A DNA stretch of 64,000 nucleotides from Cognatishimia activa (GTDB lineage: Bacteria > Pseudomonadota > Alphaproteobacteria > Rhodobacterales > Rhodobacteraceae), in contig NZ_CP096147.1 in NCBI RefSeq assembly GCF_026016445.1, positions 188,501 through 252,500 on the forward strand, in the 5' to 3' direction. Each line of letters opens with the position of its first letter. The first letter of the stretch is position 1. The notes beneath the pieces are model-generated. The model searched no databases, was not told the DNA's origin, and saw only the letters and a list, made by a program, of their open reading frames with translations. Both the position numbers and the translations under genes were made by a program. Shown one piece after another: positions 12,434 through 44,162 of the stretch.

Positions 12434-12439
12434 CACAGC

Positions 12440-21652: not shown

Positions 21653-21670
21653 TATTTATTTTGCGCCCAA

Positions 21671-21682
21671 TGGAACGTTCCA
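21671..21682. promoter_or_regulatory. LacI-type operator, site 2
   Basis: A second TGGAACGTTCCA, followed directly by AAAGGAGG, the SD of the gene at 21699. Binding here would overlap the translation start region and probably block transcription. In the 350-base gap before it (21343-21640) I see no gene. Confidence 0.8.
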
Positions 21683-21698: not shown

Positions 21699-22700
21699 AT
21701 GGATTGGGGATTGATCGGAGCCAGCACAATTGCTGCTGAACACATGATCGGCGCGATCCGTGCTCAGAAGGGGCATGAGGTCACGTCTGTCCTGAGTTCA
21801 GGCGCAGATCGCGGTGCTTCTTATGCCGCCATTCATGGCATCAAGACCTCTACAACCTCTCTGGAAGAAATCCTGGCGGACGATCAGATTGGTGCGGTCT
21901 ATATTTCGACCACCAATGAAAAACACCTCTCGCAAGCCTTGGCGGCCTTTGCGGCAGGCAAACACGTCATGTGTGAAAAGCCCTTGGCCATGTCAGCAGC
22001 CGACGCAGCGACGATGGTGAAAGCAGCGGCAGAAGCTGGCGTTGTGTTGGGCACCAATCACCACCTGCGTTCTGCCGGCACTCATCTTGCGATGAAACAG
22101 CTGATCACCGATGGCGTGATCGGTGAGGTATTGAGCCTGCGGGTGTTCCACGCTGGTCTGCTGCCTGAACACTTGCGTGGCTGGCGTCTTAGTGATCCTG
22201 CTGCTGGGGGCGGCGTGATCCCGGATCTTGTGGTGCATGATGCGGATACCGTTCGCTTTTACCTCGACGAAGACCCGAAATCCGTGGTCGCAATGGAATC
22301 GCATGGTTCGATGTCTCAAGGCGTTGAAGATGGTGCGATGTCTGTCTGGAAAATGCCGTCCGGCGTTCAGGTCATGACCCATGAAAGCTTTACCCATCCG
22401 TTTTCCCAATCCGGTTTGGAAATCTATGGCACCAAAGGATCTTTGGTCGCGCGCAATGTGATGACCCAATTGCCTGTGGGCGAGATCACTCTGACCACAG
22501 CCGCCGGTTCCCAACCGGTGACCTACAGTGATCATGGTCTTTATGACCGCACGATGGCGCAGTTTGCAGCCGCGATCGACGGCAAAGGCCAGCCATCTGC
22601 CACCGGTGTTGATGGTGTGAAATCCCTGGCCGTGGCTGAAGCCGTGAAACAGGCGGCGGTCTCTGGCCAAGCCACCAAAGTTGACTATTGCGGAGTGTGA
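21699..22700 (+). CDS. Gfo/Idh/MocA-family NAD(P)-dependent oxidoreductase 1
   Basis: A 333-residue Rossmann enzyme: GLIGAST (cofactor loop, about 4-10), CEKPLAMS in the middle (the EKP motif with catalytic Lys) and TNHHLRS. The family oxidises sugars, inositols or sugar derivatives at a secondary hydroxyl. I chose the ATG at 21699 because it has AAAGGAGG at good spacing. It begins a plus-strand gene run controlled by the two LacI-type sites. A second family member starts at the far end of the island. Confidence 0.88.
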   Translation: MDWGLIGASTIAAEHMIGAIRAQKGHEVTSVLSSGADRGASYAAIHGIKTSTTSLEEILADDQIGAVYISTTNEKHLSQALAAFAAGKHVMCEKPLAMSAADAATMVKAAAEAGVVLGTNHHLRSAGTHLAMKQLITDGVIGEVLSLRVFHAGLLPEHLRGWRLSDPAAGGGVIPDLVVHDADTVRFYLDEDPKSVVAMESHGSMSQGVEDGAMSVWKMPSGVQVMTHESFTHPFSQSGLEIYGTKGSLVARNVMTQLPVGEITLTTAAGSQPVTYSDHGLYDRTMAQFAAAIDGKGQPSATGVDGVKSLAVAEAVKQAAVSGQATKVDYCGV

Positions 22701-22702
22701 TC

Positions 22703-24274
22703 ATGTCTAAAATTGTCTCTGCATCTGAAGCCGTGTCCCGGATTGAAGACGGGCAGGTTGTCTCTGTGTCCTCTTCTTCGGGATTGGGCTGCCCCGATCT
22801 AGTTCTGCAAGCCTTGGGGGAGCGGTTTGACGCAACGGGTGAACCCCGCAATCTGACCACGCTGCACCCGATTGCCGCAGGGGACATGTTTGGCATCAAA
22901 GGTATTGACCATATTGCCAAAGACGGCCTGCTAAGCCGCGTGTTGGCGGGTAGCTACCCTTCGGGCCCATCCTCCAAGGAAATGCCTGAAATCTGGAAGA
23001 TGATCGTGGAGGACCGGATTGCGGCCTACAATGTGCCGTCCGGCATTATGTTTGACATGCACCGTGACGTCGCTGCACGCCGCCCGGGTGTGTTGACCAA
23101 AGTGGGCATGGAAACTTTTGCGGACCCGATCCGCGAAGGTTGCGCTATGAACGACAAAGCGGCGGAAGCGCCAATTGTGTTCCGTCAGGAGCTTGCAGGC
23201 GAAACCTGGCTGCATTTCCCCAACATCGTTCCAAATGTGGCCATCCTTCGGGCGACCACCGCAGATGAACACGGCAACCTGACGTATGAACACGAGGGTG
23301 CGTATCTTGGCGGACTGGAACAGGCCATCGCTGCACGTAATCATGGTGGTCTGGTGATTGCACAGGTCAAACGTGTCACCACTCATGGAAGTCTGAACCC
23401 ACATGACGTGCGTGTGCCGGGCCATCTGGTGGATTTGATTGTGATCGATCCCGACCAAAAACAGACCACAGAAACACAAAATGATCCCGCGATTTCAGGT
23501 GAGATCATGCGCCCGCTTGATGGATTTTCCATCCCGGAGATGTCTGTCGAAAAAGTTCTAGCGCGCCGCGCTGCGCTGGAACTCAATGCAGGCCAGACGG
23601 CCAATCTGGGTTTTGGCATCTCAGCGCAAGTGCCACGTATTCTGATCGAAGAGGGGCAGGCGCAGGCGGTGACCTGGGCCATTGAACAAGGCGCCGTGGG
23701 CGGTGTCCCATTGACAGGGTTTGCCTTTGGCTGCGCGTCCAATGCAGATGCCTATGTACCATCACCTCAGCAGTTCACCTATTTTCAGGGTGGAGGCTTT
23801 GACGTCACCTTCCTGTCCTTCCTCGAGGTGGATGTCGAAGGCAATGTGAATGTTTCCAAGCTTGGTAAAAAACCTTACCTGACAGCCGGTTGCGGTGGCT
23901 TTGTCGATATTGTCGCCAATGCAAAGAAAATCGTTTTCTCTGGCTATTTCGAAGCTGGTGCAAAACTGGATATCACCGAAGATGGTCTGACGATTAGCCA
24001 GCCAGGCAAGTTCACCAAGATGGTAGAGCAAGTCGAGCATGTCACCTTCTCTGGTAAACGTGCTCTGGAGCTGGGGCAGGAGGTGATCTACATCACCGAA
24101 CGCTGTGCGATGCGCTTGACGGAACAAGGATTGGAAGCCTTTGAAATCATGCCTGGAATTGATCCGGCGCGGGATATCGTTGCCGCATCCCACGGCCGTG
24201 TTCAGATCGCGGAAAACGCGACAGTGATGTCCATGGTGTTATTGCAGGAGGCCCCGATGGGGCTGTCGCTATGA
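22703..24274 (+). CDS. Family I CoA-transferase (YdiF/propionate CoA-transferase-like)
   Basis: A 523-residue fused alpha-beta CoA-transferase of family I. The glycine-rich loop is SSSSGLGCPD (about 23-32), and the catalytic glutamate that forms the gamma-glutamyl-CoA intermediate is probably E328 in EQGAVGG. The enzyme moves CoA between carboxylic acids, for example from acetyl-CoA to a pathway acid. Its stop overlaps the crotonase ATG (ATGA). It is a paralogue of the gene at 58811, sharing GSL(N/D)PHxVRVP and RRAALE. The context is sugar catabolism, which is unusual for this family. Confidence 0.87.
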   Translation: MSKIVSASEAVSRIEDGQVVSVSSSSGLGCPDLVLQALGERFDATGEPRNLTTLHPIAAGDMFGIKGIDHIAKDGLLSRVLAGSYPSGPSSKEMPEIWKMIVEDRIAAYNVPSGIMFDMHRDVAARRPGVLTKVGMETFADPIREGCAMNDKAAEAPIVFRQELAGETWLHFPNIVPNVAILRATTADEHGNLTYEHEGAYLGGLEQAIAARNHGGLVIAQVKRVTTHGSLNPHDVRVPGHLVDLIVIDPDQKQTTETQNDPAISGEIMRPLDGFSIPEMSVEKVLARRAALELNAGQTANLGFGISAQVPRILIEEGQAQAVTWAIEQGAVGGVPLTGFAFGCASNADAYVPSPQQFTYFQGGGFDVTFLSFLEVDVEGNVNVSKLGKKPYLTAGCGGFVDIVANAKKIVFSGYFEAGAKLDITEDGLTISQPGKFTKMVEQVEHVTFSGKRALELGQEVIYITERCAMRLTEQGLEAFEIMPGIDPARDIVAASHGRVQIAENATVMSMVLLQEAPMGLSL

Positions 24275-25038
24275 GCCGCGTTGATCTGAAAATCGAAGGC
24301 GCGATTGCACACCTTCTGGTCTCCAATCCGACCAAACTGAACGCATTGACGCCCGATATGCTAGCGCAGCTCATAGCACATTGCGATGCGTTGGATGTGA
24401 ATCCGGATGTGCGCGTTGTGTTGATTTCGGGCGACCATCCAAAGGCATTCTGTGTTGGGGCAGATATCGCTGCCTGGGCCAAGTTACCTCCCGCGCGTTT
24501 TGCGCGCTCCTGGGTGCGGGGCGGTCATCGTATTTTTGATCGTCTCGCCCGCCTTTCCAAACCCACAATTGCCGTTTTGAACGGACATGCTTTTGGTGGC
24601 GGCTTGGAACTGGCCACCGCCTGCGACATTCGCGTGATGGCGCCAAAAGCCCGCATTGCCCTGCCCGAAGCGCAGGTTGGCGTGGTGCCCGGTTGGTCCG
24701 GCACGCAACGGCTGCAACGTCTGATCCCGGAAGGTATTATGAAGGAAATGGCGTTGTTTGGACGCCAGCTAAGTGCCGAACGTGCGCATCAGATTGGGTT
24801 TGTGTCCGAGGTGGCAGATGATCCGATGTCTGTCGCATTGGACATGGCCGCAAGCGCGGCGAAACTGTCTCCACGCGCGACCGAAATCAGCAAAAACATG
24901 ATCCATGCCGGCGCCGGTGAAGACAGCGCCGCAATGATCGAAGCGATTGGTGGTGGCCTGATTGCCACCTCTGACGACAAATCCGAAGGCGTCGACGCCT
25001 TCTTGGAAAAACGCTCTCCAGATTTCTCGGGAAAATGA
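24271..25038 (+). CDS. Enoyl-CoA hydratase/isomerase (crotonase) 1
   Basis: A 255-residue crotonase: oxyanion-hole segments AFCVGADIAAW (about 54-64) and GHAFGGGLELATACD (about 107-121), and the catalytic region PEAQVGVVPGWSGTQRL. Family members hydrate enoyl-CoA, isomerise it, or cleave beta-diketones. Its start overlaps the CoA-transferase stop, so the acid activated by the transferase is probably its substrate. A second crotonase follows the paralogous CoA-transferase at 60413. Confidence 0.88.
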   Translation: MSRVDLKIEGAIAHLLVSNPTKLNALTPDMLAQLIAHCDALDVNPDVRVVLISGDHPKAFCVGADIAAWAKLPPARFARSWVRGGHRIFDRLARLSKPTIAVLNGHAFGGGLELATACDIRVMAPKARIALPEAQVGVVPGWSGTQRLQRLIPEGIMKEMALFGRQLSAERAHQIGFVSEVADDPMSVALDMAASAAKLSPRATEISKNMIHAGAGEDSAAMIEAIGGGLIATSDDKSEGVDAFLEKRSPDFSGK

Positions 25039-25039
25039 C

Positions 25040-26560
25040 ATGACTGCTCACGATTACACCCTTATTGCCGCCAGCCAGTCGCCAGATGATGCGCTGAATG
25101 AAGTGCGCCATTTGGTTAATGGCGCTTGGATCGACAGCGCAGACGGGGCGACCTTTGAGCGCCTGTCTCCAGCGCACGGCACTCTGGTGTCTCGGATTGC
25201 ACTTGGCGGCGCGCCTGAAACGGAAGCCGCCGTTGCAGCTGCGCGCAAAGCTTTCGACGAGCGCGTCTGGTCAACCATGTCCGGCAAAGATCGCGCGACA
25301 GTTCTGCTGAAGGTCGCTGATCTGATTGACGCAAACAGCGCGCGTATTGCGCGGCTTGAAGTCTTGGAAAGCGGCAAGCCGATTTCCCAAGCAGGAGCCG
25401 AGATCATGGGGGCGGCCGACCTCTGGCGTTATGCCGCTGCATTGGCCCGCACCCTGCATGGGGACAGCCACAATACGCTGGGCAGCGACATGCTGGGCGT
25501 CGTGTTGAAAGAGCCGATTGGCGTTGTTTCAATTATCTGCCCTTGGAACTTCCCGTTTCTGATCGTCAGCCAGAAGTTGCCTTTTGCCCTGGCGGCAGGG
25601 TGCACCTGCGTGGTGAAACCATCAGAACTGACTCCTTCAACAACCGCCATCTTGGGCGAGCTGCTGATCGAGGCCGGCATCCCTGCCGGCGTAGTGAATA
25701 TCGTCCAAGGGTTCGGCGATCCGGTGGGCAGTATCATGACTACACATGAAGCCGTCGATATGGTCAGCTTCACTGGCTCAACGGCCGTTGGTAAAGCCAT
25801 TGAAAAAGCCACCGCGGATACTTTGAAAAAAGTATCCTCCGAACTGGGTGGCAAGAACCCTCAGGTTCTTTTCCCGGATGCTGATCTGGACAGCGCGATC
25901 GACGCGATTGTGTTTGGCATCTACTTCAACGCGGGCGAATGCTGTAATTCTGGATCTCGTATCATCGTGCATGAAGACATCGCAGAAGAGGTCACACGTC
26001 GCGTTGTAGAGTTGAGCCGCAAAGTGCCGTTTGGTGATCCACTGCACCCCGATACCAAGGTCGGGGCGATCATTCACCAAGGTCATTTCGACAAGATCAG
26101 CAGCTATGTTGAAGATGCCGTTGCCGCTGGCGCGAAGGTTGAAATTGGCGGCGCTGCGCTATCTGTTGATGGCATGGATGGCGCATTCTTTGCGCCGACC
26201 GTGGTCAGCAACCTTACACCGGATATGCCCATCGCCCGCGAAGAAGTCTTTGGCCCGGTTCTGTCGGTTCTGACCTTCAAAACCATGGATCAGGCGCTCG
26301 ATCTGGCGAATGGTGCTTCTTACGGTCTGTCCGCAGGGGTTTGGAGCGAAAATATCCATACTTGTCTGGAGTTTAGCCGCCGTGTTCAGGCTGGCACCGT
26401 TTGGACCAACACCTGGATGGATGGCTTTCCCGAAATGCCGTTTGGCGGCGTGAAAGAAAGCGGTCAAGGCCGCGAGTTGGGGCGCTACGGACTGGAAGAG
26501 TTTCTTGAAGTGAAGACCGTGCAAATGCGGATTGGCCGCACGCGCGCAAACTGGATTTGA
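25040..26560 (+). CDS. NAD(P)-dependent aldehyde dehydrogenase 1
   Basis: A 506-residue ALDH: N170 in PWNFPFL, the E268 general base in SSELGGKNP, and C301/C302 in NAGECCNSG. The start ATG at 25040 is two bases after the crotonase stop. It oxidises an aldehyde to an acid, which fits a step before CoA activation by the upstream transferase. Substrate cannot be told from the sequence. Confidence 0.9.
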
Positions 26561-26603
26561 TCCGCAACGACGGATCAGAATTAACGCAAACTGGGAGGAT
26601 ACC

Positions 26604-27854
26604 ATGCGTAAGACAATCCTGAAACTATCGACCGCTTTGGTCATTGGCGGCATGTCCGCAAACGTGGCAGCTGCCGGGGACGTTGAAGTTCTGCACTGGT
26701 GGACGTCTGGCGGTGAAGCTTCCGCTCTGAATGTGCTTAAGCAAGACCTGGAAGGTCAGGGCATCGGCTGGAATGACATGCCTGTCGCGGGCGGCGGTGG
26801 CGAAAGCGCCATGACCGTTCTGCGTGCCCGCGTCACAGCTGGCAACGCACCAACCGCGGTTCAAATGCTGGGTTTTGACATCCTGGATTGGGCCGGTGAA
26901 GGCGCTTTGGCTGACCTAAACGCTGTGGCCGAAGCCGAGGGCTGGGACGCGGTTGTTCCAGAAGCTCTGCAAGCCTTTGCCAAACACGATGGCAAGTGGG
27001 TTTCTGCGCCAGTGAACGTGCACTCCACAAACTGGGTCTGGGCCAACAAATCTGTTCTGGACGCCAATGGCATCGCTGTTCCGACCACTTGGGAAGAATT
27101 CGAAGCGGCGCTGGCGACCCTGTCTGCGGCTGGCGTGACACCAATCGCGCATGGCGGTCAGGCATGGCAGGAGGCCACCGTATTTGATGCCATCGCCATG
27201 TCCACCGGTGGTCCGGACTTCTACAAGTCTGCTTTCATCGATCTGGACGAAGGTGCCCTTGGGTCTGACACCATGGTTGAAGCCTTCCGTCGCATGGACG
27301 TGATCCGTGCAAACGTTGACGAAAACTTCTCTGGTCGTGATTGGAACCTGGCAACTGCCATGGTCATCAACGGCGACGCTGCGTTCCAGCTGATGGGCGA
27401 TTGGGCGAAGGGCGAGTTCATCAACGCAGGCAAGGTTCCTGGTGAAGACTTTCTCTGCTTCCGTTTCCCTGGCACGGCGGATCAGGTGACCTTCAACGCG
27501 GACCAGTTTGCGCTGTTTGACCAAGGTGGCGATGTGTCATCTGAACAGGCATCTCTGGCGAGTGCGATCCTGTCGCCTTCCTTCCAGTCGGCATTCAACG
27601 TTGTGAAAGGCTCTGCGCCTGCGCGGACCGACGTAAGCGACGAAGCGTTTGACGCCTGCGGTAAGAAAGCAATTTCCGATCTGGCCACTGCGGCGGAATC
27701 CGGCAACCTGTTTGGCTCGATGGCCCATGGCCACGCAGCTCCTGCCAGCATCAAAAACGCGCTTTATGACGTTGTGACTGCTCACTTCAACGGTGAGTTT
27801 GATGCCGCAACTGCAGCGGAAGAGCTGGTCGACGCGGTTGCCATCGCAAAATGA
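26604..27854 (+). CDS. Sugar ABC transporter substrate-binding protein
   Basis: A 416-residue cluster-B type binding protein. A signal peptide ([19 protein letters not shown], cleavage after AAA) is followed by [16 protein letters not shown], typical of glucose/mannose-type sugar binding proteins. An SD GGGAGGA precedes ATG at 26604. It probably delivers the island's sugar substrate to the two permeases behind it. A stem-loop after its stop separates it from the permeases. Confidence 0.92.
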
Positions 27855-27864
27855 CGCTACACTA

Positions 27865-27888
27865 GGTTGGGGCCTGATGGCCCCAACC
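27865..27888 (+). terminator. Intercistronic stem-loop after the binding-protein gene
   Basis: GGTTGGGGCC-TGAT-GGCCCCAACC is a perfect 10-bp stem with a 4-base loop and no T-run. Such hairpins usually protect the binding-protein mRNA 3' end and lower downstream expression. Confidence 0.7.
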
Positions 27889-27919
27889 ATTCCAAATACC
27901 AACCTAAGAGGGGGATGCT

Positions 27920-28846
27920 ATGACAATGCAGATCACCGATCCTGCTGTCAGACGCTCGGCGGCAACAAAGCCCGATTTTCGAACCCGACTTCAAAACTGG
28001 ATCCCGAAACTGGTGCTGTCACCGTCCTTGGCTCTGATTATCGTTTTTGTCTACGGGTTCATCTTTTTCTCGGTTTATCTTAGCTTCACCGACAGTCGCA
28101 TCCTGCCAAGCTATGGTTGGGTGGGGTTTGAAAACTACGATAAGCTTTTCCGACTGCGCCATTGGGATATCGCGGTCAGTAATTTGGTCGTATTCTCAAG
28201 CCTTTACATTATTTTCTGTACCGTCATTGGTCTGCTGCTCGCGATCTTTTTGGACCAGAAAATTCGCGGCGAAAGTATCTTGCGCCCGATCTACCTCTAT
28301 CCAATGGCGCTGAGTTTTATCGTGACCGGGACCGCGTGGAAGTGGTTCCTCGATCCGGGTATCGGCCTTGAGCACACCATGCATCTTTGGGGCTGGGAGA
28401 GTTTCAGCTTTGACTGGATTAAAAACCGAGACTTTGCGATTTACACAGTCGTATTGGCAGCTGTTTGGCAATCCTCGGGATTTGTGATGGCGATGTTCCT
28501 TGCAGGTCTGCGTGGCATCGACAATGAGATGCTGAAAGCGGCGCAGATGGATGGCGCCAGCAACTTCCAACTTTATCGCCGTATCATCATTCCACAGCTG
28601 CGCCCCGCCTTTCTGTCGGCCTTTGTGATCCTCAGCCACCTTGCGATTAAGTCTTATGACCTAGTGGTCGCATTGACCGGTGGCGGTCCTGGGCGTGCCA
28701 CGGAAGTTCCGGCCACGTTCATGTATTCCTACACCTTTACCCGTAACCAAATGGGGATCGGTGCAAGCTCTGCTGTGATCATGCTGCTAACCATCGTCGC
28801 GATCATGGTGCCTTACCTTTACTCTGAATTGCGGGAGAAGAAATAA
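27920..28846 (+). CDS. Sugar ABC transporter permease (MalF type)
   Basis: A 308-residue inner-membrane permease with about six hydrophobic segments and the EAA loop GLRGIDNEMLKAAQMDGAS before LRPAFLSAF. It is a carbohydrate uptake-1 (CUT1) type subunit. Its stop overlaps the start of the next permease by one base. The hydrophilic N-terminus (RRSAATKPDFRTRLQNWIP) is cytoplasmic. Confidence 0.92.
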   Translation: MTMQITDPAVRRSAATKPDFRTRLQNWIPKLVLSPSLALIIVFVYGFIFFSVYLSFTDSRILPSYGWVGFENYDKLFRLRHWDIAVSNLVVFSSLYIIFCTVIGLLLAIFLDQKIRGESILRPIYLYPMALSFIVTGTAWKWFLDPGIGLEHTMHLWGWESFSFDWIKNRDFAIYTVVLAAVWQSSGFVMAMFLAGLRGIDNEMLKAAQMDGASNFQLYRRIIIPQLRPAFLSAFVILSHLAIKSYDLVVALTGGGPGRATEVPATFMYSYTFTRNQMGIGASSAVIMLLTIVAIMVPYLYSELREKK

Positions 28847-29727: not shown

Positions 29728-29747
29728 AGAAACCAAATACTTACACG

Positions 29748-29765
29748 CCGACGCCTTCGCGTCGG
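29748..29765 (+). terminator. Small intercistronic hairpin
   Basis: CCGACGC-CTTC-GCGTCGG forms a 7-bp stem with a stable loop between the permease and the ATPase gene. No T-run follows, so it is probably an mRNA-stability element. Confidence 0.55.
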
Positions 29766-29796
29766 GTTCAATGAGATACAATTCAGGAGAAACCTC

Positions 29797-32414: not shown

Positions 32415-32454
32415 ATGATTTGGCATCTACACGGCTTGCATCGAGGAAAGTGAC

Positions 32455-34059
32455 ATGTCTCAGGGTTTTGATTTCATCATCATCGGCGGCGGTTCTGCGG
32501 GGTCGGTTTTGGCAGGGCGCCTGTCAGAAGATCCAGCAGTCAATGTCTTGCTGCTGGAAGCTGGTGGCAGTGACCGGCATCCGTTTTACCATCTGCCAGC
32601 CGGTTTTGCGAAGATGACGAAGGGGATCGGGTCCTGGGGATGGGACACGGTGCCTCAGAAACATATGCAAAACAAAGTGTTCCGCTACACGCAGGCCAAA
32701 GTGATCGGGGGTGGGTCCGCCATCAACGCCCAGATCTACACACGCGGCAACGCGCAGGACTATGACGACTGGCGTCAAATGGGCTGTGACGGTTGGGGCT
32801 ATGAGGATGTACTACCGTACTTCCGCAAGGCCGAAGACAACGAGACCTACGAAAATCGCTACCATGGCAAAGGTGGCCCGCTTGGGGTCAGCGAGCCAAG
32901 CGCCCCCTTGCCGATTTGTGAAGCCTACTTTGATGCGGCAGCTGAGATTGGCATTCCTCGGAACATGGACATCAATGGCGAAAAACAAGACGGCGTCTGC
33001 TACTACCAGCTGACTCAACGCAATGTGCGCCGCTCTTCCGCAGCAATGGCCTATGTGGCGCCAAACAAACACCGCAAAAACCTGACCGTTAAGCTCGGGG
33101 CGCAGGTGAGGCGCATCATTGTTGAATTTGGCCGCGCAGTTGGTGTCGAGATGCTGAATGGCACAAAGCTGCATGCAGATCGCGAAGTGCTACTGTGTTC
33201 AGGCGCCATTGGCTCTCCGCGACTGTTGCAATTGTCGGGCATTGGGCCAGCGGATCATCTGCGGTCACTGGACATTGATGTAGTACAAGATCAATCCGAG
33301 ATCGGCGCCAACTTACAGGACCATCTTGATCTTTATTGTATCAGCGAGCTGAACGGCCCCTTTAGCTACGATCGCTACGCGAAACCGCAATGGGCGGCTT
33401 ATGCCGGGCTGCAATACCTCTTTGCTCGGAAGGGGCCGGTTGCCTCTTCGCTGTTTGAAACCGGCGGCTTTTGGTATGCCGATCCAGACGCACGTTCCCC
33501 GGATATTCAATTCCATCTTGGACTGGGCACCGGGATCGAACATGGGGTCGCAACAATGCCGCAGGGCGGAGTCACACTGAATTCCTGCTACCTACGGCCC
33601 AGATCGCGTGGCTCGGTGCGGCTACAAAGTGCTGATCCAGCCAAGGCGCCGCTGATCGACCCGAACTATTTGCAAGACCCGTTGGATCGCGAAATGTCGA
33701 TCCGGGGCCTGAAGTTGACGCAGGAGATCTTGTCCCAATCTCCGCTGAGCAAATACATTATGGCCGAGCGCTTGCCCGGACCGGATGTGAAGTCCGACCA
33801 AGACTACTTTGACTTTATTTCGGAACACTCCAAGACCTCGCACCATTGTGCCGGAACGTGCCGCATGGGCGTTGACGATAATGCCGTTGTGGACACGCGT
33901 CTGCGCATGAACGGGATTGATGGTCTGCGCGTCGTCGATAATTCGATCATGCCAACAGTGATTTCCTCTAACACCAATGCTGCCGCAATCATGATCAGTG
34001 AAAAGGCGGCTGACATGATCAAAAGTGACCACAAAATGCAAATGGGAGAAGCCGCATGA
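32455..34059 (+). CDS. GMC-family oxidoreductase 2 (choline dehydrogenase-like)
   Basis: A 534-residue GMC flavoprotein: GGGSAGSVLAGRLSE (FAD loop, about 11-25), GGGSAINAQIYTRG, the GMC signature GAIGSPRLLQLSGIGP, and the catalytic region HHCAGTCRMG. It resembles AlkJ/choline dehydrogenase alcohol oxidoreductases. Two GMC enzymes side by side in a sugar cluster suggest two oxidation steps. Its stop overlaps the Dabb gene start. Confidence 0.87.
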   Translation: MSQGFDFIIIGGGSAGSVLAGRLSEDPAVNVLLLEAGGSDRHPFYHLPAGFAKMTKGIGSWGWDTVPQKHMQNKVFRYTQAKVIGGGSAINAQIYTRGNAQDYDDWRQMGCDGWGYEDVLPYFRKAEDNETYENRYHGKGGPLGVSEPSAPLPICEAYFDAAAEIGIPRNMDINGEKQDGVCYYQLTQRNVRRSSAAMAYVAPNKHRKNLTVKLGAQVRRIIVEFGRAVGVEMLNGTKLHADREVLLCSGAIGSPRLLQLSGIGPADHLRSLDIDVVQDQSEIGANLQDHLDLYCISELNGPFSYDRYAKPQWAAYAGLQYLFARKGPVASSLFETGGFWYADPDARSPDIQFHLGLGTGIEHGVATMPQGGVTLNSCYLRPRSRGSVRLQSADPAKAPLIDPNYLQDPLDREMSIRGLKLTQEILSQSPLSKYIMAERLPGPDVKSDQDYFDFISEHSKTSHHCAGTCRMGVDDNAVVDTRLRMNGIDGLRVVDNSIMPTVISSNTNAAAIMISEKAADMIKSDHKMQMGEAA

Positions 34060-34370
34060 TCCGACATATTGTGCTAATAAAATTCAAACCAGAGATCACC
34101 GAAGACCGCGTTAAAGAGCTGTTTGAAGAATTGGCATCCGTGCAATCGCAACTGCCGGGCATGCGCGCTATTTCTAGCGGTCTCAGCGAAAGCCCCGAGA
34201 AAATGGAACGTGGTTTCATGCATGGGTTTGTAGCGGATTTTGCTGATTGGGATGCTTTGGAGGCTTATCAAGACAATGCCGACCATCAGACCCTGGGGGC
34301 CAAGCTGACCGAAGCGGCCGTCGGTGGCAAAGACGGGATTCTTTGTTTCGACTACGAATTTGAAGCGTAA
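34056..34370 (+). CDS. Dabb (stress-responsive A/B barrel) protein
   Basis: A 104-residue ferredoxin-like barrel: MIRHIVLIKFKPEITEDRV at the start and ADFADWDALEAYQDNADHQ in the middle, the Dabb pattern. Such proteins are dimeric and often accompany Gfo/Idh/MocA and sugar genes; some act as small enzymes. The exact role is unknown. Its ATG overlaps the GMC stop (ATGA). Confidence 0.85.
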   Translation: MIRHIVLIKFKPEITEDRVKELFEELASVQSQLPGMRAISSGLSESPEKMERGFMHGFVADFADWDALEAYQDNADHQTLGAKLTEAAVGGKDGILCFDYEFEA

Positions 34371-34445
34371 GCCTTCCGTCGTGATTGCAACCTTGCAGCA
34401 TGAATGAAATAGTCATGGGTTAACAATAGGTGAACTGGCGTAGGC

Positions 34446-35447
34446 ATGGCAAAGAGCAGACCAACCATCATTGATGTTGCGAAAAAGGCGGGCGTGTCGA
34501 AATCAACCGTGTCGCTTGTTTTGCAGAACAGCTCGACCGTGCGGGAGGAAACACGCAAGCAGGTGCGCACAGCGATGCGGGATCTGGGCTACGTTTACAA
34601 TCGCTCCGCAGCCAATATGCGCAAGTCAAATGCAGCTTTGATCGGCTTGGTGATCAATAACCTGCGCAACCCGTTCTTCACCGAGTTTGCGACATCCCTT
34701 CAAATGGCGCTTTCAGAGAAAGGCTATGCGGTGGTCATTGCCAACACTGATGAAAGAGCTGATCTGCAAGATCAGGTTGTCCTGTCGATGATTGAACATG
34801 GTGTTTCGGCTTTCATCCTGTGCCCAGCTTATGGCGACACTAAGGACACCTTTGATGCCATCGAGCGGGCAGGATTGCCTGCATTGCAGGTCTTGCGGCG
34901 CGTTGACGAAAGGGTTGAGACGTTCCCGTTCATAGCGCCAGATTACAGGACCGGAAGTGTGGCCGCGACGGAACATATGATCCGGGCTGGTGCCAAAAAC
35001 ATCGCCTTTATCGGAGGGCGAGCAGGGCTTTCCGTTACGGACGAACGCATGTCAGGGTATCTGGCAGTCCTTCAGCGGGAAGGACAGCAGCCCACTATCA
35101 TAACCGGGGACTCAACTCGTGAATTCGGGCGCAAGACGGCCAGGGACATCCAGCAGAACCATCCGGAGCTTGATGCCGCAGTATGCTTCAACGATTTGGT
35201 TGCCCTTGGATTGAACAGCGGGATGCGCGAAGCGGGCAAGGCCGTGGGCAAGGATTTCTTGATCGTTGGTTTTGACGATATTGAAGACGCTGCGCAGGCC
35301 TATCCGGCCATTTCATCAGTCAGCTGCGGCATTGATGCCATTGGCAAACGGTCCGCAGAGACCATCGTGCACTGGATTGAACAGGGGAATGCACCGGTTG
35401 TGAAACATCGGACGCCGGTCGAACTTATTCTCAGGGACTCCAGCTAG
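34446..35447 (+). CDS. LacI-family transcriptional repressor
   Basis: A 333-residue LacI regulator: N-terminal helix-turn-helix IDVAKKAGVSKSTVSLVLQ (about 10-28), hinge region, and a ribose-binding-protein-like sensor domain (GLVINNLRNPFF, then FVGFDDIEDAA-type). No TGGAACGTTCCA is seen before its own gene, so it may not be tightly autoregulated. The three palindromes at 21641, 21671 and 40584 are its likely operators, and the inducer is probably an intermediate of the island. Confidence 0.92.
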   Translation: MAKSRPTIIDVAKKAGVSKSTVSLVLQNSSTVREETRKQVRTAMRDLGYVYNRSAANMRKSNAALIGLVINNLRNPFFTEFATSLQMALSEKGYAVVIANTDERADLQDQVVLSMIEHGVSAFILCPAYGDTKDTFDAIERAGLPALQVLRRVDERVETFPFIAPDYRTGSVAATEHMIRAGAKNIAFIGGRAGLSVTDERMSGYLAVLQREGQQPTIITGDSTREFGRKTARDIQQNHPELDAAVCFNDLVALGLNSGMREAGKAVGKDFLIVGFDDIEDAAQAYPAISSVSCGIDAIGKRSAETIVHWIEQGNAPVVKHRTPVELILRDSS

Positions 35448-35560
35448 CGGCATAACCCAACCCAAGACCTCCTGTGGAATGATTTCCAGGGCGCGTGACA
35501 CGCGACCCGACCAGGTCATGCTGCGCGGGGGGTACCTAGACAATAGAAAGAAGGCGAGCC

Positions 35561-36196
35561 ATGAGTGTATTTGACGAGATTGCCAAAATCGGGGTCGTTC
35601 CGGTCATCGTGCTGGATGATCCAGGTCACGCGCTGCCACTTGCGGATGCGTTGATCGCTGGCGGGCTGCCGATAGCGGAAATCACTTTCCGCACCGAGGC
35701 GGCAGCAAAGGCGATTTCGGAAATCACAATTCATCGCCCAGAGATGATTGTCGGGGCAGGCACCGTGCTGACAGAAGATCAGCTTGATGCAGCAGCGGAT
35801 GCCGGTGCGCGGTTTGCATTGTCACCGGGCATAGACAAAGACGTGCTGGCACGTGCGGCCAAGCGCGATCTGCCTTTCGCCCCGGGCATCATGACACCCT
35901 CTGACTTGCAGCTGGCCCTGCGAGCCAATTGTAAGTTGGTGAAGTTCTTCCCCGCGATGGCCGCCGGAGGGCTGAAGATGCTGCAAAACATCGCTGGGCC
36001 ATATTTGCACACCGGAATTGGCTTTAACCCAACCGGGGGTGTGTCACTGGACAACATGCAGGACTGGTTGTCTTTTGGGCCGGTCAAAGCCGTCGGAGGC
36101 AGCTGGATTGCCACGCGCTCTGATATTGCGTCGCAGAACTGGTCGCAGATCACGGCAAATGCCAAAGAAGCTTTGGAGCTTGCGCAGCACGCATAA
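35561..36196 (+). CDS. eda: KDPG/KHG aldolase
   Basis: A 211-residue class I aldolase: E40 and R44 in AEITFRT, the GAGTVLT loop (about 65-71), Schiff-base K128 in KLVKFFPA, and the PTGGVS phosphate-site loop. It splits 2-keto-3-deoxy-6-phosphogluconate to pyruvate and glyceraldehyde 3-phosphate. Together with the convergent KDG kinase it supplies the end of a sugar-acid pathway inside the island. It ends at a strong terminator. Confidence 0.93.
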   Translation: MSVFDEIAKIGVVPVIVLDDPGHALPLADALIAGGLPIAEITFRTEAAAKAISEITIHRPEMIVGAGTVLTEDQLDAAADAGARFALSPGIDKDVLARAAKRDLPFAPGIMTPSDLQLALRANCKLVKFFPAMAAGGLKMLQNIAGPYLHTGIGFNPTGGVSLDNMQDWLSFGPVKAVGGSWIATRSDIASQNWSQITANAKEALELAQHA

Positions 36197-36204
36197 ACAA
36201 ATTC

Positions 36205-36230
36205 GCCCCCGCCTTCGGAAAGGCAGGGGC
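36205..36230. terminator. Bidirectional terminator between convergent eda and kdgK
   Basis: GCCCCCGCCTT-CGGA-AAGGCAGGGGC forms a long GC stem with an AAATT/AAATTT flank on both sides, so it can end both the plus-strand eda transcript and the minus-strand kdgK transcript. Confidence 0.85.
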
Positions 36231-36259
36231 AAAATTTGCGTTCTTGACCGCTGAAAACG

Positions 36260-37195
36260 CTAATTTTGGGTGAGCTTCGCCAGGTCCGGATTCGGGATTC
36301 GCGCTCCGAAATGCTGGATCACTTCCCCGGCGACCAGCTGCCCACGCCGGATGGCCTCAACTGGGTCGCTGCCCAGCAGTCGCGCGCTCAGATACCCCGC
36401 GTTAAAAGCATCACCTGCGCCGGATGTGTCTCGCAAGCTGGTGACCTCGGGGGTGGAAACCAGGTACGGCGTGCCATCGATCAACGCCGCGACAGATTCT
36501 GCGCCATTTTTAAGGACAACTTCAGACACCCCCGCCGCCGCAAACCTTTTGAGCGTGTCCTCTGGGGTTTGATCCCCCCAATTGGTCTGTTCATCGTCAA
36601 AGCTGGGCAGGGCGATGTCACATTGACCCAGGAACCTGGCGACGGTTTCTTGAATTTCAGTCTTTGAAGCCCAAAGACGCGGGCGAATATTCGGATCAAA
36701 TGACACCCGAGTCCCTGCTGCACGGGCATCGCCGAGGGCTGCCAGTAGTGTCTCACGTGCTGCGTCGTTGAGGACGGCAAGCGTGATGCCACTCAGGTGG
36801 ATAAGGCCAGCACCAATCAGTTGAGATGTCAGCCAGGCCTGATCTTCGGCAAGCCCGCGGGCCGCAGAGCTGTCGCGCCAATAGTGAAAACTACGCTCCA
36901 CGCCATCAAGCTCTATCATATACATGCCCATGGTTCGCGCCGGGTCGCGGCCGATCATGGCTACGTCCAAACCGTCATTTTGCAGTTCCGAAACAAACGC
37001 ATCTGATAGGGAATCCTGCCCCACCTTGGTGAGAAATCCGATGGACGACCGCCCATCAAGCAGCTGCGCCATCTGCCAGACGGTGTTGAACGTGTCTCCT
37101 GCAAAACGCTGCTTAAACATACCAGCGCCCATCGGAGCCATCTCGATCATGGCTTCCCCAATGGCGACGGCATTCTGGGATTGAAATTCTAACAA
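36260..37195 (-). CDS. kdgK: 2-keto-3-deoxygluconate kinase (PfkB family)
   Basis: A 311-residue ribokinase-like enzyme: GGRSSIGFLTKVGQDSLSD near residues 48-66 and the PfkB signature DTSGAGDAFNAGYL near the C-terminus with the catalytic Asp. It phosphorylates 2-keto-3-deoxygluconate for the KDPG aldolase. The start is a TTG four bases after the flavoprotein stop; the next ATG is at residue 16, which would cut the first strand. It shares the minus-strand operon with the flavoprotein and Gfo/Idh genes. Confidence 0.9.
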   Translation of the reverse strand: MLEFQSQNAVAIGEAMIEMAPMGAGMFKQRFAGDTFNTVWQMAQLLDGRSSIGFLTKVGQDSLSDAFVSELQNDGLDVAMIGRDPARTMGMYMIELDGVERSFHYWRDSSAARGLAEDQAWLTSQLIGAGLIHLSGITLAVLNDAARETLLAALGDARAAGTRVSFDPNIRPRLWASKTEIQETVARFLGQCDIALPSFDDEQTNWGDQTPEDTLKRFAAAGVSEVVLKNGAESVAALIDGTPYLVSTPEVTSLRDTSGAGDAFNAGYLSARLLGSDPVEAIRRGQLVAGEVIQHFGARIPNPDLAKLTQN

Positions 37196-37198
37196 GGT

Positions 37199-39286
37199 TT
37201 AACTTTCTTTTTCGACGATGTCGTAGATCGCGCCGGTCAACCAAGCAGGCCAATCGCGTTCAAAAAACGCCTTTGCGTCTTCGTCAAACACCCGGTTTGG
37301 ACGTTCGGACATCACCATCTGGGTGCCATCAAGATGCACAAGAACCTGCTTTTCTTTGTCCGCATCATTTTCAACACGGAAACGAACATCGCCCAGCGGT
37401 CCACTGCGCGCTTGGGGTAGGGCTGATCCTGCCGGGTCACACACGGCACGAGCGCCACGGCTACCGCCACCATTTGCGATGAAATGTTCAAGTGCGGCCA
37501 GCACGGCCTCGGAGGCCAACGCCATTTGCTGCCACTGCAGAACGCGCGCAATTTCGCTGGGGCGGTCATAGGTCAGCCCGGTGTCGCGAATGCGCGCGTT
37601 CAATGCGCAGGCTGCCTCAAAGGCGGTTTTCACCTCATCTTGCGTGCAGAGAATGCCCGCGTAATCGCTCATGCGGGCTTGGACTTCTTCACGCACGGAT
37701 TTGGCGTCCAGAGTGCTGTCAGGTTGCAGCAAGGTTTTGATCTGATCGAGAACATCGGCCGCACTGCGCTCTAGCGCTGCGCCCTCCATCGGTGATCCCG
37801 TCTGGCTGGCGGCGATATGTTCGGCAACGCGGGTGCCAAACACTTGCCCAGCATTGAGCGCCGACCCTCCGGGGCGTGTGACGCCGTGGGTGCCTGCGGC
37901 CTCGCCAATGGCGTAGATCCCGGAAACATTGCTGCGGCCCCAGGTGTCAACCGCAATGCCGCCGTTCATATGCTGATTGTTCACCGCAAATTCCAGCGGT
38001 TCTTCTGCAATATCAATCTTATAGCGACGATAGAGTTCGATCGCGAGCGGGTTCATGTGGCGCAAACGGTCGATTGGCATTTCGTGCTCTGCACCGGCAT
38101 TTGTCAGATAGGTGCGTACGTCCTCATCCAGCCGCTCCAAGCTGAATTCCAAGTCGCCAGGCACCGCAAGTGGGTTCCGGTTGAAATCCATAAAGACGCG
38201 GCGGCCCTTTTGGCTTTCCCGGAATATCGCCAGATCGACGAGGCTCGATCCAAAATCCAACATCCGCGTCGCATGGAATGGCCATTGGTAGCCCTTGCGG
38301 AACACGTTTGAGGCCAGCTCTTGTGTGGTCCGGTAGTATTCGGCCAGGAAATGGTGTTCTTCACCGGCGTCATCGACGGAATAGATATGCGGAATGACCT
38401 GCACATAGGTGCCAGACAGGTTCCATGGGAAACCTTCGCGGCGGGTACCGATCCCAAATTGGCTTTCGGTGATGTTTGTCAGCTCAAGGCCGCTTTCCAG
38501 CGCCATGCCCAGCGTGCCAAAACAACCATTTGGAAAAACGCTGTCTCGGTACAATTCACCGGGCCCGCCCGCTGCAATCACGCAGGACTTAAATTGGAAG
38601 AGCACAAGACCATAAGGGTTGGCGTCGGATTGCTCTTTGGCACGGATCGCCAGCAACCCAATGGTCTTGCGTTCATCCCCATGTCCTGAGGTCAGAATTT
38701 TGACCGCCGTCGTGCGGTTAAAGAAGGCCATGTTCTGATGGATCGCCTCTTTTGCCAAAACCTGCACCATCAAGCGTGATGTTCGAGGGCCACAGCTGGT
38801 GGCGCGCCCAATTTCGTCATGGTCTGTTTTGTACCGCAGCGTGCCGCCCAAATCGTCTTGCGGCAAAGGCAGACCAAGAAACTGCAAAGACGCCATGGCG
38901 CGCGCAGACCCGACGGCTTCGATATAAGCGGTGTCTTCATCCATCGCGCCACCAGCGCGAATGGCCCGCGCCATATCTTTGAAATTGTCACCCTGATCAG
39001 CGGTGTTTGCCGTGTGCAGCGTTTGTTTGTCAGAACCAGAGCAGGCAGATGTGCCGCCCCAGGCGCTTTGGCTGACAATGGCAACATCGACGTCGCGCCG
39101 CTTGAGTTCAACGGCGGCGCGCAGCCCGGCAGCGCCGCTTCCGACCACGAGGCTTTCACAGCGATACAGCGGCAAACGGTGGCCATCTATGTCGATGTGC
39201 GCGGGGAACTCCGGCTCGGGTTGAAGATGTGGCATCTCCACATCGGTGAGCGCATCAAGGATATGCTGAGGGATTGGCTGAGGCAC
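37199..39286 (-). CDS. Fumarate-reductase/succinate-dehydrogenase-type flavoprotein 1
   Basis: A 695-residue FAD protein with SLVVGSGAAGLRAAVEL (FAD loop, about 45-61), GGTSACSGSDKQTLHT, a HMNGG segment and a C-terminal EAAGTHGVTRPGGSALNAG. It is a soluble relative of the SdhA/FrdA/aspartate oxidase group, without neighbouring iron-sulfur or membrane anchor genes. It may desaturate or reduce a sugar-acid or enoyl intermediate. The GTG start at 39286 lacks a good SD; ATG at 39235 is an alternative. It lies between Gfo/Idh 2 and kdgK. A second such flavoprotein is at 57073. Confidence 0.83.
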   Translation of the reverse strand: MPQPIPQHILDALTDVEMPHLQPEPEFPAHIDIDGHRLPLYRCESLVVGSGAAGLRAAVELKRRDVDVAIVSQSAWGGTSACSGSDKQTLHTANTADQGDNFKDMARAIRAGGAMDEDTAYIEAVGSARAMASLQFLGLPLPQDDLGGTLRYKTDHDEIGRATSCGPRTSRLMVQVLAKEAIHQNMAFFNRTTAVKILTSGHGDERKTIGLLAIRAKEQSDANPYGLVLFQFKSCVIAAGGPGELYRDSVFPNGCFGTLGMALESGLELTNITESQFGIGTRREGFPWNLSGTYVQVIPHIYSVDDAGEEHHFLAEYYRTTQELASNVFRKGYQWPFHATRMLDFGSSLVDLAIFRESQKGRRVFMDFNRNPLAVPGDLEFSLERLDEDVRTYLTNAGAEHEMPIDRLRHMNPLAIELYRRYKIDIAEEPLEFAVNNQHMNGGIAVDTWGRSNVSGIYAIGEAAGTHGVTRPGGSALNAGQVFGTRVAEHIAASQTGSPMEGAALERSAADVLDQIKTLLQPDSTLDAKSVREEVQARMSDYAGILCTQDEVKTAFEAACALNARIRDTGLTYDRPSEIARVLQWQQMALASEAVLAALEHFIANGGGSRGARAVCDPAGSALPQARSGPLGDVRFRVENDADKEKQVLVHLDGTQMVMSERPNRVFDEDAKAFFERDWPAWLTGAIYDIVEKES

Positions 39287-39317
39287 GTTTAAGGTCCAAT
39301 TTTAGGAGAAACAGCGA

Positions 39318-40481
39318 TTAAGTCAGATCGACCCAGCTCTTTTTGCGTGAAGATTCCATGCAAGCGTCGACCATTTGGCAAATGTGGTGACCCGTTTCAA
39401 AGGTTGGCCACATGGGCTGGTTTGAAACGATGGACTTTACCACTTCGGCCACTTCGATGATCTTGCTTTCATTGTATCCAAGCGCAAAGTTCGGCAATGG
39501 CAGGAAGGATCGGAAGGTTTCGTTTTCCGGACCGACGTCAATTTCACGATAGCCACGGCGTCCATTGGCATCTTCGTTGGAATAAAAGCGGATCCGGTTC
39601 ACCTCATCATAGGTGTACACCAGGCTGCCTTTGGTGCCATAAATCTCATAAGTCTGCATAAATTTTCGACCGGTCGCGATGCGGCTGAAATCCACAATGC
39701 CGCGGGCGCCGTTTTCAAAGGAACACAACAGGTTAGTTCCGTCAGGATTGGTGATGTCGGCCCATTCTTCTTGGCCGGTCAGCTTGGTTTCCTCGCCATA
39801 AGCCAAGCCGTCCACAACCGGACGTTTGTCAGTGACGATAAAGTTGTCTGCGATCAATGAGCTGACGCGGCCAACGAGGAATTCCATAAAGCTGAAGATG
39901 TGACTTCCTGTGTCTCCGACGATCCCGGTTGGGGCTAGCTCGCCGTTTGCCCGCCACATATAAGGTGCCAATGGATCACCATACATATCGATGTGCTGGC
40001 AGCCTTTGAACATCTTGATTTCGCCGATCTCACCCGCGTCGATGATTTCCTTCGCCAGATCATGTACAGGGTTGCGTGGGAAGGCATGGCCCACGCGGGT
40101 AATTACGCCTTTCGCTTTGGCGATATCAGCCAGCTCGCGCGCTTCGGCGGCGGTATCTGCCAGCGGTTTTTCACAATAGACATGTTTGCCAGCCAACAGC
40201 GCGGCTTTCGCAACTTCGTAGTGCAGGCTATCTGGCAGACAGATGTCGATCAGGTCGATGTCTGGGTCGGCAATGGCTGCCTTCCAATCGTTCAAGATCT
40301 TTGCTTCAGGCGCGCGGAATGCCAACTCTTTGGCGGCTTCGGGATTTGCCTCGACCAAAGCGACCACTTTGGCTGTGCCCGACTCTGCGCCTAGAAAATG
40401 CGGAAAGGTCTGATAGGCCATCGTATGAACCTTGCCCATCCAACCCGAAGCGCCAAGAACTGCGACCCTGACTTGCGTCAT
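39318..40481 (-). CDS. Gfo/Idh/MocA-family oxidoreductase 2
   Basis: About 387 residues from ATG at 40481, after an SD TTGGGAGA. The frame is open 132 codons further upstream, but that extension shows no family sequence. It has VLGASGWMGK (cofactor loop), CEKPLADT (EKP motif), and a substrate domain with GDTGSHIFSFMEFL. It probably oxidises a cyclic sugar or derivative, as does the enzyme at the other end of the island. It is the first gene of the minus-strand operon and has a LacI-type palindrome about 100 bases before it. Confidence 0.88.
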   Translation of the reverse strand: MTQVRVAVLGASGWMGKVHTMAYQTFPHFLGAESGTAKVVALVEANPEAAKELAFRAPEAKILNDWKAAIADPDIDLIDICLPDSLHYEVAKAALLAGKHVYCEKPLADTAAEARELADIAKAKGVITRVGHAFPRNPVHDLAKEIIDAGEIGEIKMFKGCQHIDMYGDPLAPYMWRANGELAPTGIVGDTGSHIFSFMEFLVGRVSSLIADNFIVTDKRPVVDGLAYGEETKLTGQEEWADITNPDGTNLLCSFENGARGIVDFSRIATGRKFMQTYEIYGTKGSLVYTYDEVNRIRFYSNEDANGRRGYREIDVGPENETFRSFLPLPNFALGYNESKIIEVAEVVKSIVSNQPMWPTFETGHHICQMVDACMESSRKKSWVDLT

Positions 40482-40583
40482 CTTTATATCTCCCAACCTA
40501 ACTCTGGCATAATGTCCAAACCATCCGCATTGCTTCGCAAGGCAGGTCTTTTTGGATCGTTCCAGTTTGGATTGGTAGATATG

Positions 40584-44157: not shown

Positions 44158-44162
44158 TATCA

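Follow-up and report, generated by a model that had tools for sequence, protein, structure and literature searches.

In the 64,000-nucleotide stretch of Cognatishimia activa DNA analysed here (contig NZ_CP096147.1, positions 188,501 to 252,500 of the forward strand; in the following "the window", whose numbering is used throughout), an island of sugar and coenzyme A (CoA) genes occupies positions 21699 to 40481. Its plus-strand operon runs from Gfo1 to Eda (21699-36196), four adjoining gene pairs overlapping by 1-4 bases, and a convergent minus-strand operon reads in the order Gfo2, flavoprotein, KdgK (40481-36260). Every gene class named in a preliminary description of this DNA was recovered in its place by comparison with Pfam. 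The genes and regulatory features are as follows.

21633-21662, plus strand: sigma-70-like promoter overlapped by an operator (9 of 12 matches)
21641-21652, plus strand: LacI-type operator TGGAACGTTCCA, copy 1 (exact)
21671-21682, plus strand: LacI-type operator, copy 2, 30 bp from copy 1 (exact)
21699-22700, plus strand: Gfo1, 1,5-anhydro-D-fructose reductase-like Gfo/Idh/MocA enzyme (Pfam; PDB comparison)
22703-24274, plus strand: CoA-transferase (CoAT), YdiF/FadX-like, single-chain family I (Pfam, NCBIfam, PDB)
24271-25038, plus strand: crotonase of the enoyl-CoA hydratase type, both catalytic-type Glu present (Pfam)
25040-26560, plus strand: aldehyde dehydrogenase (ALDH; Pfam)
26604-27854, plus strand: solute-binding protein (SBP) of the glucose type (GtsA/GltB), Leu in place of Lys92
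27920-28846, plus strand: first CUT1 permease (Pfam)
28846-29727, plus strand: second CUT1 permease (Pfam)
29797-30912, plus strand: MalK-type ATPase (Pfam)
30912-32414, plus strand: GMC1, sugar dehydrogenase resembling FAD glucose dehydrogenase (Pfam; PDB comparison)
32455-34059, plus strand: GMC2, choline-dehydrogenase/alcohol-oxidase-like protein (Pfam)
34056-34370, plus strand: Dabb protein (Pfam, 73.7 bits)
34446-35447, plus strand: LacI-family regulator (Pfam)
35561-36196, plus strand: Eda, 2-keto-3-deoxy-6-phosphogluconate (KDPG) aldolase (Pfam; TIGR01182 above cut-off)
36202-36233, minus strand: terminator-like stem of 14 pairs between the convergent operon ends
36260-37195, minus strand: KdgK, 2-keto-3-deoxy-D-gluconate (KDG) kinase-like PfkB protein (Pfam; NCBIfam 258 bits, cut-off 400)
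37199-39286, minus strand: fumarate-reductase/aspartate-oxidase-like FAD flavoprotein (Pfam)
39318-40481, minus strand: Gfo2, levoglucosan-dehydrogenase-like Gfo/Idh/MocA enzyme (Pfam; PDB comparison)
40553-40564, plus strand: operator copy with one mismatch, upstream of the Gfo2 operon
40584-40595, plus strand: exact operator, upstream of the Gfo2 operon, 31 bp from the one-mismatch copy

Terminator-like stems as such show no clear excess in the region (28 sites, 21.4 in shuffled sequences), and its sigma-70-like sites (6, shuffles 10.8) are not significant alone. The 3,211,994-base genome holds three exact copies of the palindrome TGGAACGTTCCA, all inside the island, two ahead of Gfo1 and one ahead of Gfo2. 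With up to one mismatch the window contains four sites against 0.30 expected, a number reached in none of 100 shuffles. The refined limits of the regulon extend from the first operator at 21641 to the end of the last one at 40595, ahead of Gfo2; KdgK and Eda sit in the two operator-flanked operons. In 107 of 109 related loci, namely those with enough upstream sequence (103 distinct CoA-transferase sequences), the 450 bp that precede the first gene of the operon contain a site with at most one mismatch; two such sites are present in 83 of the 109, the background being 0.007 per 450-bp stretch. Gfo2 is preceded by an operator in 7 of 10 other loci, and two loci (L252, L260) place operator sites between a LacI-Gfo1 operon and the gene of a DUF993 protein, a family considered below. 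The main-text passages of a survey of LacI regulons (PMC4052901) contain neither such a motif nor such a sugar as proposed below. We regard it as practically certain that the island constitutes one conserved regulon, presumably a catabolic one under its LacI-family regulator.

The arrangement of the genes was compared in a named set of 80 loci (the best 80 of 585 found) and an unnamed set of 31 contigs, which overlap in part; many loci end early, and absences of genes are upper bounds. CoAT and crotonase are present in all 80 named loci, ALDH and GMC1 in 73 each and the SBP in 70, and Gfo1, CoAT and crotonase adjoin among the matched genes in 71. Both Rhodobacterales and Rhizobiales show the order Gfo1-CoAT-crotonase-ALDH-CUT1 importer-GMC1 again, the named loci including Ruegeria, Roseibium, Paracoccus, Rhizobium and Ciceribacter. 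A genome of another family (L262) carries LacI-Gfo1-CoAT-crotonase-ALDH-SBP-PermF-PermG-ATPase-GMC1-SDR (SDR, short-chain dehydrogenase/reductase) at 40-69% identity, and L260 contains LacI-Gfo1-CoAT-crotonase-ALDH-SBP-permeases-ATPase with a Gfo1 which is 98% identical to Mesorhizobium proteins. The preliminary description had proposed to look for conserved co-occurrence in other genomes and to abandon its reading if the order were not kept; order and operator are both shared. Since both are conserved, the notion of passenger genes was dropped. One contig (L117), whose operon is 76-93% identical to that of the window, bears the name of an actinobacterium, Nocardioides marinus. It is probably misnamed, as identical coordinates are found under G238, which is assigned to the family of the window.

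Of 248 genomes of this family, 32 have a close CoAT (at least 74% identity) and 27 have one of a second class (56-63%), which is partial in two cases; one genome possesses both classes. A second operon class, whose CoAT is about 60% identical (L065-L075, L106-L115), comprises varying sets of a ribose-type importer, ALDH, GMC2, an aldo-keto reductase, CoAT, crotonase, Dabb protein, acyl-CoA dehydrogenase, SDR, DUF993, a TIM-barrel protein and glycerate kinase, with a Zn-alcohol dehydrogenase in a few. In a class-wide sample of 385 genomes a protein resembling 1,5-anhydro-D-fructose reductase (AFR) is found in five (1e-70) and a close CoAT in eight (1e-150). Both occur together in the window's genome and in G826, where the genes adjoin; G301, G986 (a 3.3-kb contig) and G987 have the AFR-like protein without close CoAT, and G055, G783, G813, G925, G976 and G1001 have the close CoAT without the AFR-like protein.

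The best matches of Gfo1 in the PDB, 2glx (373 bits, 9.6e-111) and 4koa (359 bits, 1.5e-106), are both named 1,5-anhydro-D-fructose reductase, the next kind of protein following at 83 bits (2.6e-22). Residues Lys94 and His180, which we take to be of catalytic type, are shared by all 90 sequences of an alignment that includes some repeats. According to a passage of PMC5969746, 2glx is the AFR of Sinorhizobium morelense, and a table row in PMC5817062 lists AFR positions 13 and 33 as those whose exchange allows the use of NADH. Provided that the alignment (3-329 on 3-329) is gapless, Gfo1 has Ala13 and Ser33 as AFR does. By its sequence Gfo1 falls in the AFR subfamily of Gfo/Idh/MocA proteins and is predicted to reduce anhydrofructose to anhydromannitol with NADPH. 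The Gfo1 of L260 is 55% identical to that of the window; among 120 listed homologues of it, 16 bear the automatically assigned name 1,5-anhydro-D-fructose reductase and the others are called Gfo/Idh/MocA protein or fructose reductase, or are unnamed.

Catalytic-type residues are kept in several other enzymes of the island as well. CoAT is a single chain of about 520 residues with a CoA_trans domain and matches the YdiF-type structure 2ahu at 328 bits; towards the FadX model NF052271 it reaches 329 bits, below the curated cut-off of 750. Its catalytic-type Glu is present in 133 of 133 sequences, the two of the crotonase, whose roles we assume by comparison with the rat enzyme, in 113 of 113, Cys and Glu of ALDH in 103 of 103, the His/Asn pair of GMC1 in 96 of 96, and His and Arg of the flavoprotein motif HGVTRPGG in 14 of 14. 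These counts include the window and repeats; before length filtering the distinct sequences were 126 of 133 for CoAT, 121 of 127 for crotonase, 102 of 107 for ALDH, 90 of 95 for GMC1, 84 of 90 for Gfo1 and 90 of 93 for the SBP. GMC1 and GMC2 differ in kind. The nearest match of the former is bacterial FAD glucose dehydrogenase (146 bits), pyranose oxidases being further away (36 bits), and it appears fit for oxidising a ring hydroxyl; the latter, of the choline dehydrogenase/alcohol oxidase kind, appears fit for the C6 alcohol. Gfo2 resembles the scyllo-inositol dehydrogenase belonging to the L-glucose pathway of Paracoccus (5ya8, 169 bits). Levoglucosan was rejected as substrate, Gfo2 scoring 298 bits against a cut-off of 650 in the levoglucosan dehydrogenase model and Gfo1 being the more constant of the two Gfo enzymes. 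No NCBIfam family is matched above its cut-off by Gfo1, CoAT, crotonase, ALDH, GMC1, GMC2, KdgK, flavoprotein or Gfo2.

A point beyond the preliminary description is that the genes for flavoprotein, Gfo2 and KdgK make up a module to which there is an alternative. Loci of the island's class end either in an SDR and DUF993 or in a flavoprotein module, the window being of the latter kind, and no locus with both was found among those compared. The 31 unnamed contigs divide into 11 with DUF993, 11 with the flavoprotein, none with both and nine with neither; several of these nine end near the operon, and in one of them, G152 (L053, L089), GMC2 and LacI follow downstream while the stretch read contains neither of the modules. 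A part of the 80 named loci, 50 for which the longer contigs were chosen, divides into 40 with DUF993, nine with the flavoprotein, none with both and one with neither. Here modules were matched by coordinate rather than by contig name, which gave a raw tally of 40, eight, one and one; the apparent double case, L187, was counted as flavoprotein kind because its DUF993 and its flavoprotein lie on different contigs (C41, C34). Of the 41 DUF993 distances, 40 fall between 5.5 and 14.9 kb and that of L187 is 35 kb. In the single locus with neither (L162) DUF993 lies 110 kb away. In the named set the SDR is present in 40 of 40 loci of the DUF993 kind and in none of the nine of the flavoprotein kind, and Gfo1 in 40 of 40 and seven of nine, respectively. 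The 11 unnamed flavoprotein loci contain Gfo1 in three cases and the SDR in one and, within the stretches read, Gfo2 in nine, KdgK in seven and Eda in one; a MOFRL glycerate kinase accompanies four of the 11 unnamed loci of the SDR/DUF993 kind. Two loci were noted which lack the sugar genes searched for: L061 (7645-13476), one of these 11, consists of flavoprotein, CoAT, crotonase and LacI only, and L177 (Mameliella, 10001-19765) of CoAT, crotonase, acyl-CoA dehydrogenase, TRAP transporter, flavoprotein and LacI.

DUF993, which was not found in the window's genome, occurs in 45 of 58 genomes with either CoA-transferase class and in eight of 190 without. It has a TIM-barrel fold like that of dihydrodipicolinate synthase (DHDPS), the fold of the DHDPS/NAL superfamily; Lys229 of its GIK motif is present in 26 of 26 aligned sequences, its placement on the Schiff-base lysine in strand 6 of DHDPS being a motif reading rather than a computed one. 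A first tally of 61 unmerged loci, using 12 kb for all genes, gave 12 with a dehydratase-type protein, 28 with CoAT/crotonase, none with both and 21 with neither. After merging of coordinates and with a wider range for CoAT of 20 kb, picked after the first tally (12 kb was kept for dehydratases), 57 loci remained: 32 with CoAT, 12 with an enolase-superfamily or IlvD-type protein, none with both and 13 with neither. Such counts are as expected if CoAT and crotonase stand in for a dehydratase. The enolase-superfamily protein beside DUF993 has no PDB match at 1e-3; judged from its family it is a putative dehydratase. DUF993 itself may be the 2-keto acid aldolase of the alternative end. A literature search for DUF993 returned no paper on it. 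Separate from the island's class, various loci (L199-L261) have an operon in which importers of the ABC or Tct kind accompany an enolase-superfamily protein, a Gfo/Idh/MocA enzyme, DUF993 and a TIM-barrel protein, which looks like an uncharacterised sugar-acid type pathway of its own.

Regarding the substrate, the SBP groups with glucose-binding proteins (4r2b, 573 bits); 4r2b is 65% identical to the window's SBP and up to 78% to SBPs of such operons. A passage of PMC7927077 reports twelve glucose contacts for the glucose-binding protein of P. putida. The window's SBP retains 11 of them and so departs from the complete GtsA/GltB set, Lys92 being replaced by Leu in 92 of 92 aligned sequences; two of the 92 differ at one further contact each. 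Taken together with Gfo1, this predicts a ligand which is a glucopyranose-like sugar other than glucose, anhydrofructose and anhydroglucitol being the best candidates. Because Gfo1 is closest to AFR and the SBP has a glucose-like pocket which has lost Lys92, a 1,5-anhydro sugar seems the probable substrate; the preliminary description had left the substrate open, and the placement of Gfo1 in the AFR subfamily narrows it to this class. Uptake of anhydrofructose is assumed because the genome has no match to glycoside hydrolase family 31 (GH31) which would point to an internal source.

On this basis we propose, at somewhat less than even odds, a regulon for 1,5-anhydro-hexitols (1,5-anhydro-D-glucitol, 1,5-anhydro-D-fructose, 1,5-anhydro-D-mannitol) with a CoA-dependent ring-opening route. 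The ABC importer of the glucose type, its pocket minus one lysine, would take up the anhydro sugar. GMC1 would oxidise 1,5-anhydroglucitol at C2 to anhydrofructose, which Gfo1 would reduce to 1,5-anhydromannitol, leaving C2 in the manno configuration. GMC2 and ALDH might then convert C6 to yield the anhydro-uronic acid, and CoAT would form the C6 thioester, by which H5 is acidified. The crotonase would eliminate H5 and OH4 across C4-C5 to give an enol-ether thioester. Hydration of the enol ether, for which the Dabb protein is a candidate, would open the ring to KDG, the CoA passing to the next acid, and KdgK and Eda would yield pyruvate and glyceraldehyde 3-phosphate. The site of oxidation and the roles of Gfo2, flavoprotein and Dabb protein are likewise inferred. 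The stereochemistry fits this route. Crotonases catalyse syn eliminations, which suits the step assigned to them because H5 and OH4 share one ring face in both the gluco and the manno series. Read from its other end, the chain turns manno C3/C2 into C4/C5 in D-erythro arrangement, and this is the configuration of KDG. The pair GMC1/Gfo1 thereby explains the use of KdgK and Eda, because anhydroglucitol without inversion at C2 would give the C5 epimer. Loci without Gfo1 might, speculatively, correct C5 later through Gfo2 and flavoprotein, or through the SDR. The sequence of aldehyde oxidation, CoA activation and hydration or cleavage which the preliminary description had suggested agrees with the invariant catalytic-type residues, the kept order and the shared operator, the chemistry as such being putative; its statement that ordinary Entner-Doudoroff routes do not account for the island fits the gene set, and no known pathway with the same full set was met in the literature searched. 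Taken by itself, CoA-dependent dehydration with ring opening to KDG is a tentative assignment, which we rate a little lower than the anhydro-hexitol proposal as a whole.

Several observations speak against this proposal. We know of no enzyme for the hydration step, and the route leaves the roles of Gfo2 and flavoprotein unexplained. KdgK stays below its curated cut-off (258 against 400 bits), ALDH was not found in three of 40 loci, and AFR reduces other 2-keto aldoses, too. Gfo1 is missing in two of nine named and eight of 11 unnamed loci bearing the window's module. AFR and CoAT are separable, because six of the eight CoAT genomes in the class-wide sample lack the AFR-like protein and three of five AFR-like genomes lack close CoAT. 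The structure 4r2b has the same Leu in place of Lys92 and is reported to have been solved with glucose; the exchange is for this reason no proof of a 1-deoxy ligand. Allowing one mismatch, the operator pattern has seven sites genome-wide, of which the island holds four, yet its reversal, used as a control, has seven as well, so that the operator signal rests on the exact copies and their clustering. Finally, the 30 loci fetched for DUF993 itself comprise 12 of the dehydratase type, five with CoAT/crotonase, none with both and 13 with neither, a zero overlap which has a chance of 0.06; since most CoAT-bearing DUF993 loci had been fetched for CoAT, the replacement argument is weaker than the totals.

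Unlikely, albeit the strongest of the alternatives weighed, is that the CoA-dependent dehydration acts on a different acid derived from glucose (aldonic, uronic, or obtained from a 2-keto aldose) instead of on a 1,5-anhydro sugar. It would agree with the glucose-type SBP, with the likeness of GMC1 to FAD glucose dehydrogenase and with the absence of Gfo1 from many flavoprotein-type loci. GMC2, ALDH, CoAT and crotonase also occur in AFR-less operons with different importers, and L177 combines CoAT, crotonase and flavoprotein with a TRAP importer. However, an AFR-like Gfo1 is present in 40 of 40 named SDR/DUF993 loci and, taking the named set as a whole, in 71 of 80, and free gluconate would hardly require the island's genes, the genome having three ILVD_EDD homologues.

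Distinctly less probable is the published route, in which AFR yields anhydromannitol and hydroxylation at C1 leads to mannose, leaving CoAT, crotonase, ALDH and GMC2 to serve another substrate under the same regulator. KdgK and Eda are superfluous for mannose, CoAT and crotonase come directly after Gfo1 in 71 of 80 loci if matched genes are considered, and the genes of the island gave no Pfam hit to a cytochrome P450, other loci not having been searched for it. Three P450 loci elsewhere in the window's genome nevertheless leave room for the route, which a passage of a review (PMC12441222) describes for Sinorhizobium morelense. A sugar conjugate, whose released aglycone or side chain GMC2, ALDH, CoAT and crotonase would degrade in the manner of acrylate/3-hydroxypropionate or of beta-oxidation, is very improbable: these genes, together with the acyl-CoA dehydrogenase of the second operon class, do resemble an oxidation of alcohol to enoyl-CoA, yet neither a glycosidase nor a thiolase is among the island's Pfam hits, of the 80 named loci only L177 matches acyl-CoA dehydrogenase strongly and over its full length (partial in L119, weak in L185), and both end modules are of the sugar-acid type (KdgK/Eda or DHDPS-fold DUF993). 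A reading of the acrylate/3-hydroxypropionate type as such was rated low, given these end modules and the sugar-type importer and Gfo1.

Some neighbouring genes deserve mention. A VOC protein of the SMU1112c/YaeR family (window 40714-41109) adjoins Gfo2 outside the operator pair, and a relative stands before CoAT in several loci without Gfo1. At 57070-61174 the window contains a second trio of fumarate-reductase-like flavoprotein, CoA-transferase (37% identical to the island's) and crotonase, in surroundings (43141-55944) of Tct importer genes, an enolase-superfamily protein, ALDH and sulfatase; the combination of flavoprotein, CoAT and crotonase recurs here in an acid-uptake setting. Near the window's end, an integrase/transposase-type open reading frame with an rve domain is located at 62765-63646.

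The general claim, that ring opening of 1,5-anhydro sugars proceeds in bacteria via a CoA thioester (CoAT, syn dehydration across C4-C5 by crotonase, hydration to KDG) with DUF993 as the aldolase of the alternative end, is put forward with greater reserve than any of its parts above. If true, it would add a third mode of sugar-acid dehydration to those of the Fe-S (IlvD/Edd) and the enolase-superfamily dehydratases, CoA activation of a sugar acid for dehydration and ring opening being new chemistry in sugar catabolism, and would provide an aerobic 1,5-anhydroglucitol (1,5-AG) pathway as well as suggest first roles for DUF993 and the island's Dabb protein. For marine microbiology, it would predict that many bacteria of the Roseobacter type can draw carbon from these sugars, the island being common to many marine and soil bacteria as a candidate for oxygen-tolerant catabolism of 1,5-anhydro sugars. 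In humans, 1,5-AG is one of the chief polyols of the body. As stated in passages of the 2025 review (PMC12441222), its 6-phosphate builds up in neutrophils in glycogen storage disease type Ib (GSDIb) and G6PC3 deficiency, a probiotic approach would require a 1,5-AG-degrading enzyme working in air, and an oxidative 1,5-AG pathway is undescribed. The regulon offers a concrete candidate for such a pathway (importer, sensor and enzymes) and makes the question testable.

Among known systems, the routes for 3,6-anhydro-L-galactose and for alginate and pectin uronates likewise lead from an anhydro or unsaturated acid through a 2-keto-3-deoxy acid to KdgK and Eda; in contrast to the route proposed here, an enolase-superfamily cycloisomerase or a polysaccharide lyase acts on free acids in them, without CoA. 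The L-glucose pathway of Paracoccus runs to KDG, too, by way of a CoA-independent dehydratase. As in the island, its first enzyme is of the Gfo/Idh/MocA family, according to a passage of PMC5969746. The catabolism of 1,5-anhydro-D-fructose in Sinorhizobium morelense, a member of a related bacterial group, starts with an enzyme of the same subfamily by sequence. The Rhizobiaceae route ends, as the review puts it in one passage, with an unidentified C1 hydroxylase converting anhydromannitol to mannose (PMC12441222), whereas the island, whose Pfam hits include no P450, has GMC2, ALDH, CoAT, crotonase and the KDG genes, a set ill suited to a conversion to mannose. The anaerobic gut pathway for 1,5-AG and 1,5-anhydromannitol, outlined in the same review, acts on the substrate class proposed here with YbiW/PflD glycyl radical enzymes, but employs phosphorylation by a phosphotransferase system and an oxygen-sensitive radical enzyme where the island has ABC import, oxidation and CoA genes. 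Literature searches on gluconyl-CoA, aldonyl-CoA and related terms yielded papers on glyceryl-CoA only, and those on the gene set only works unrelated by title and abstract. The one printed precedent found for a CoA-bound sugar acid is the deoxyribonate pathway of Klebsiella michiganensis, in which, by the relevant passages of Price et al. 2019 (PMC6365646), the acid is proposed to be degraded as its CoA thioester and which shares a CoA-transferase and a glycerate kinase with the loci described here; it differs in its CoA synthetase, hydroxyacyl-CoA dehydrogenase and thiolase, and it handles a deoxy pentonate with no ring to be opened.

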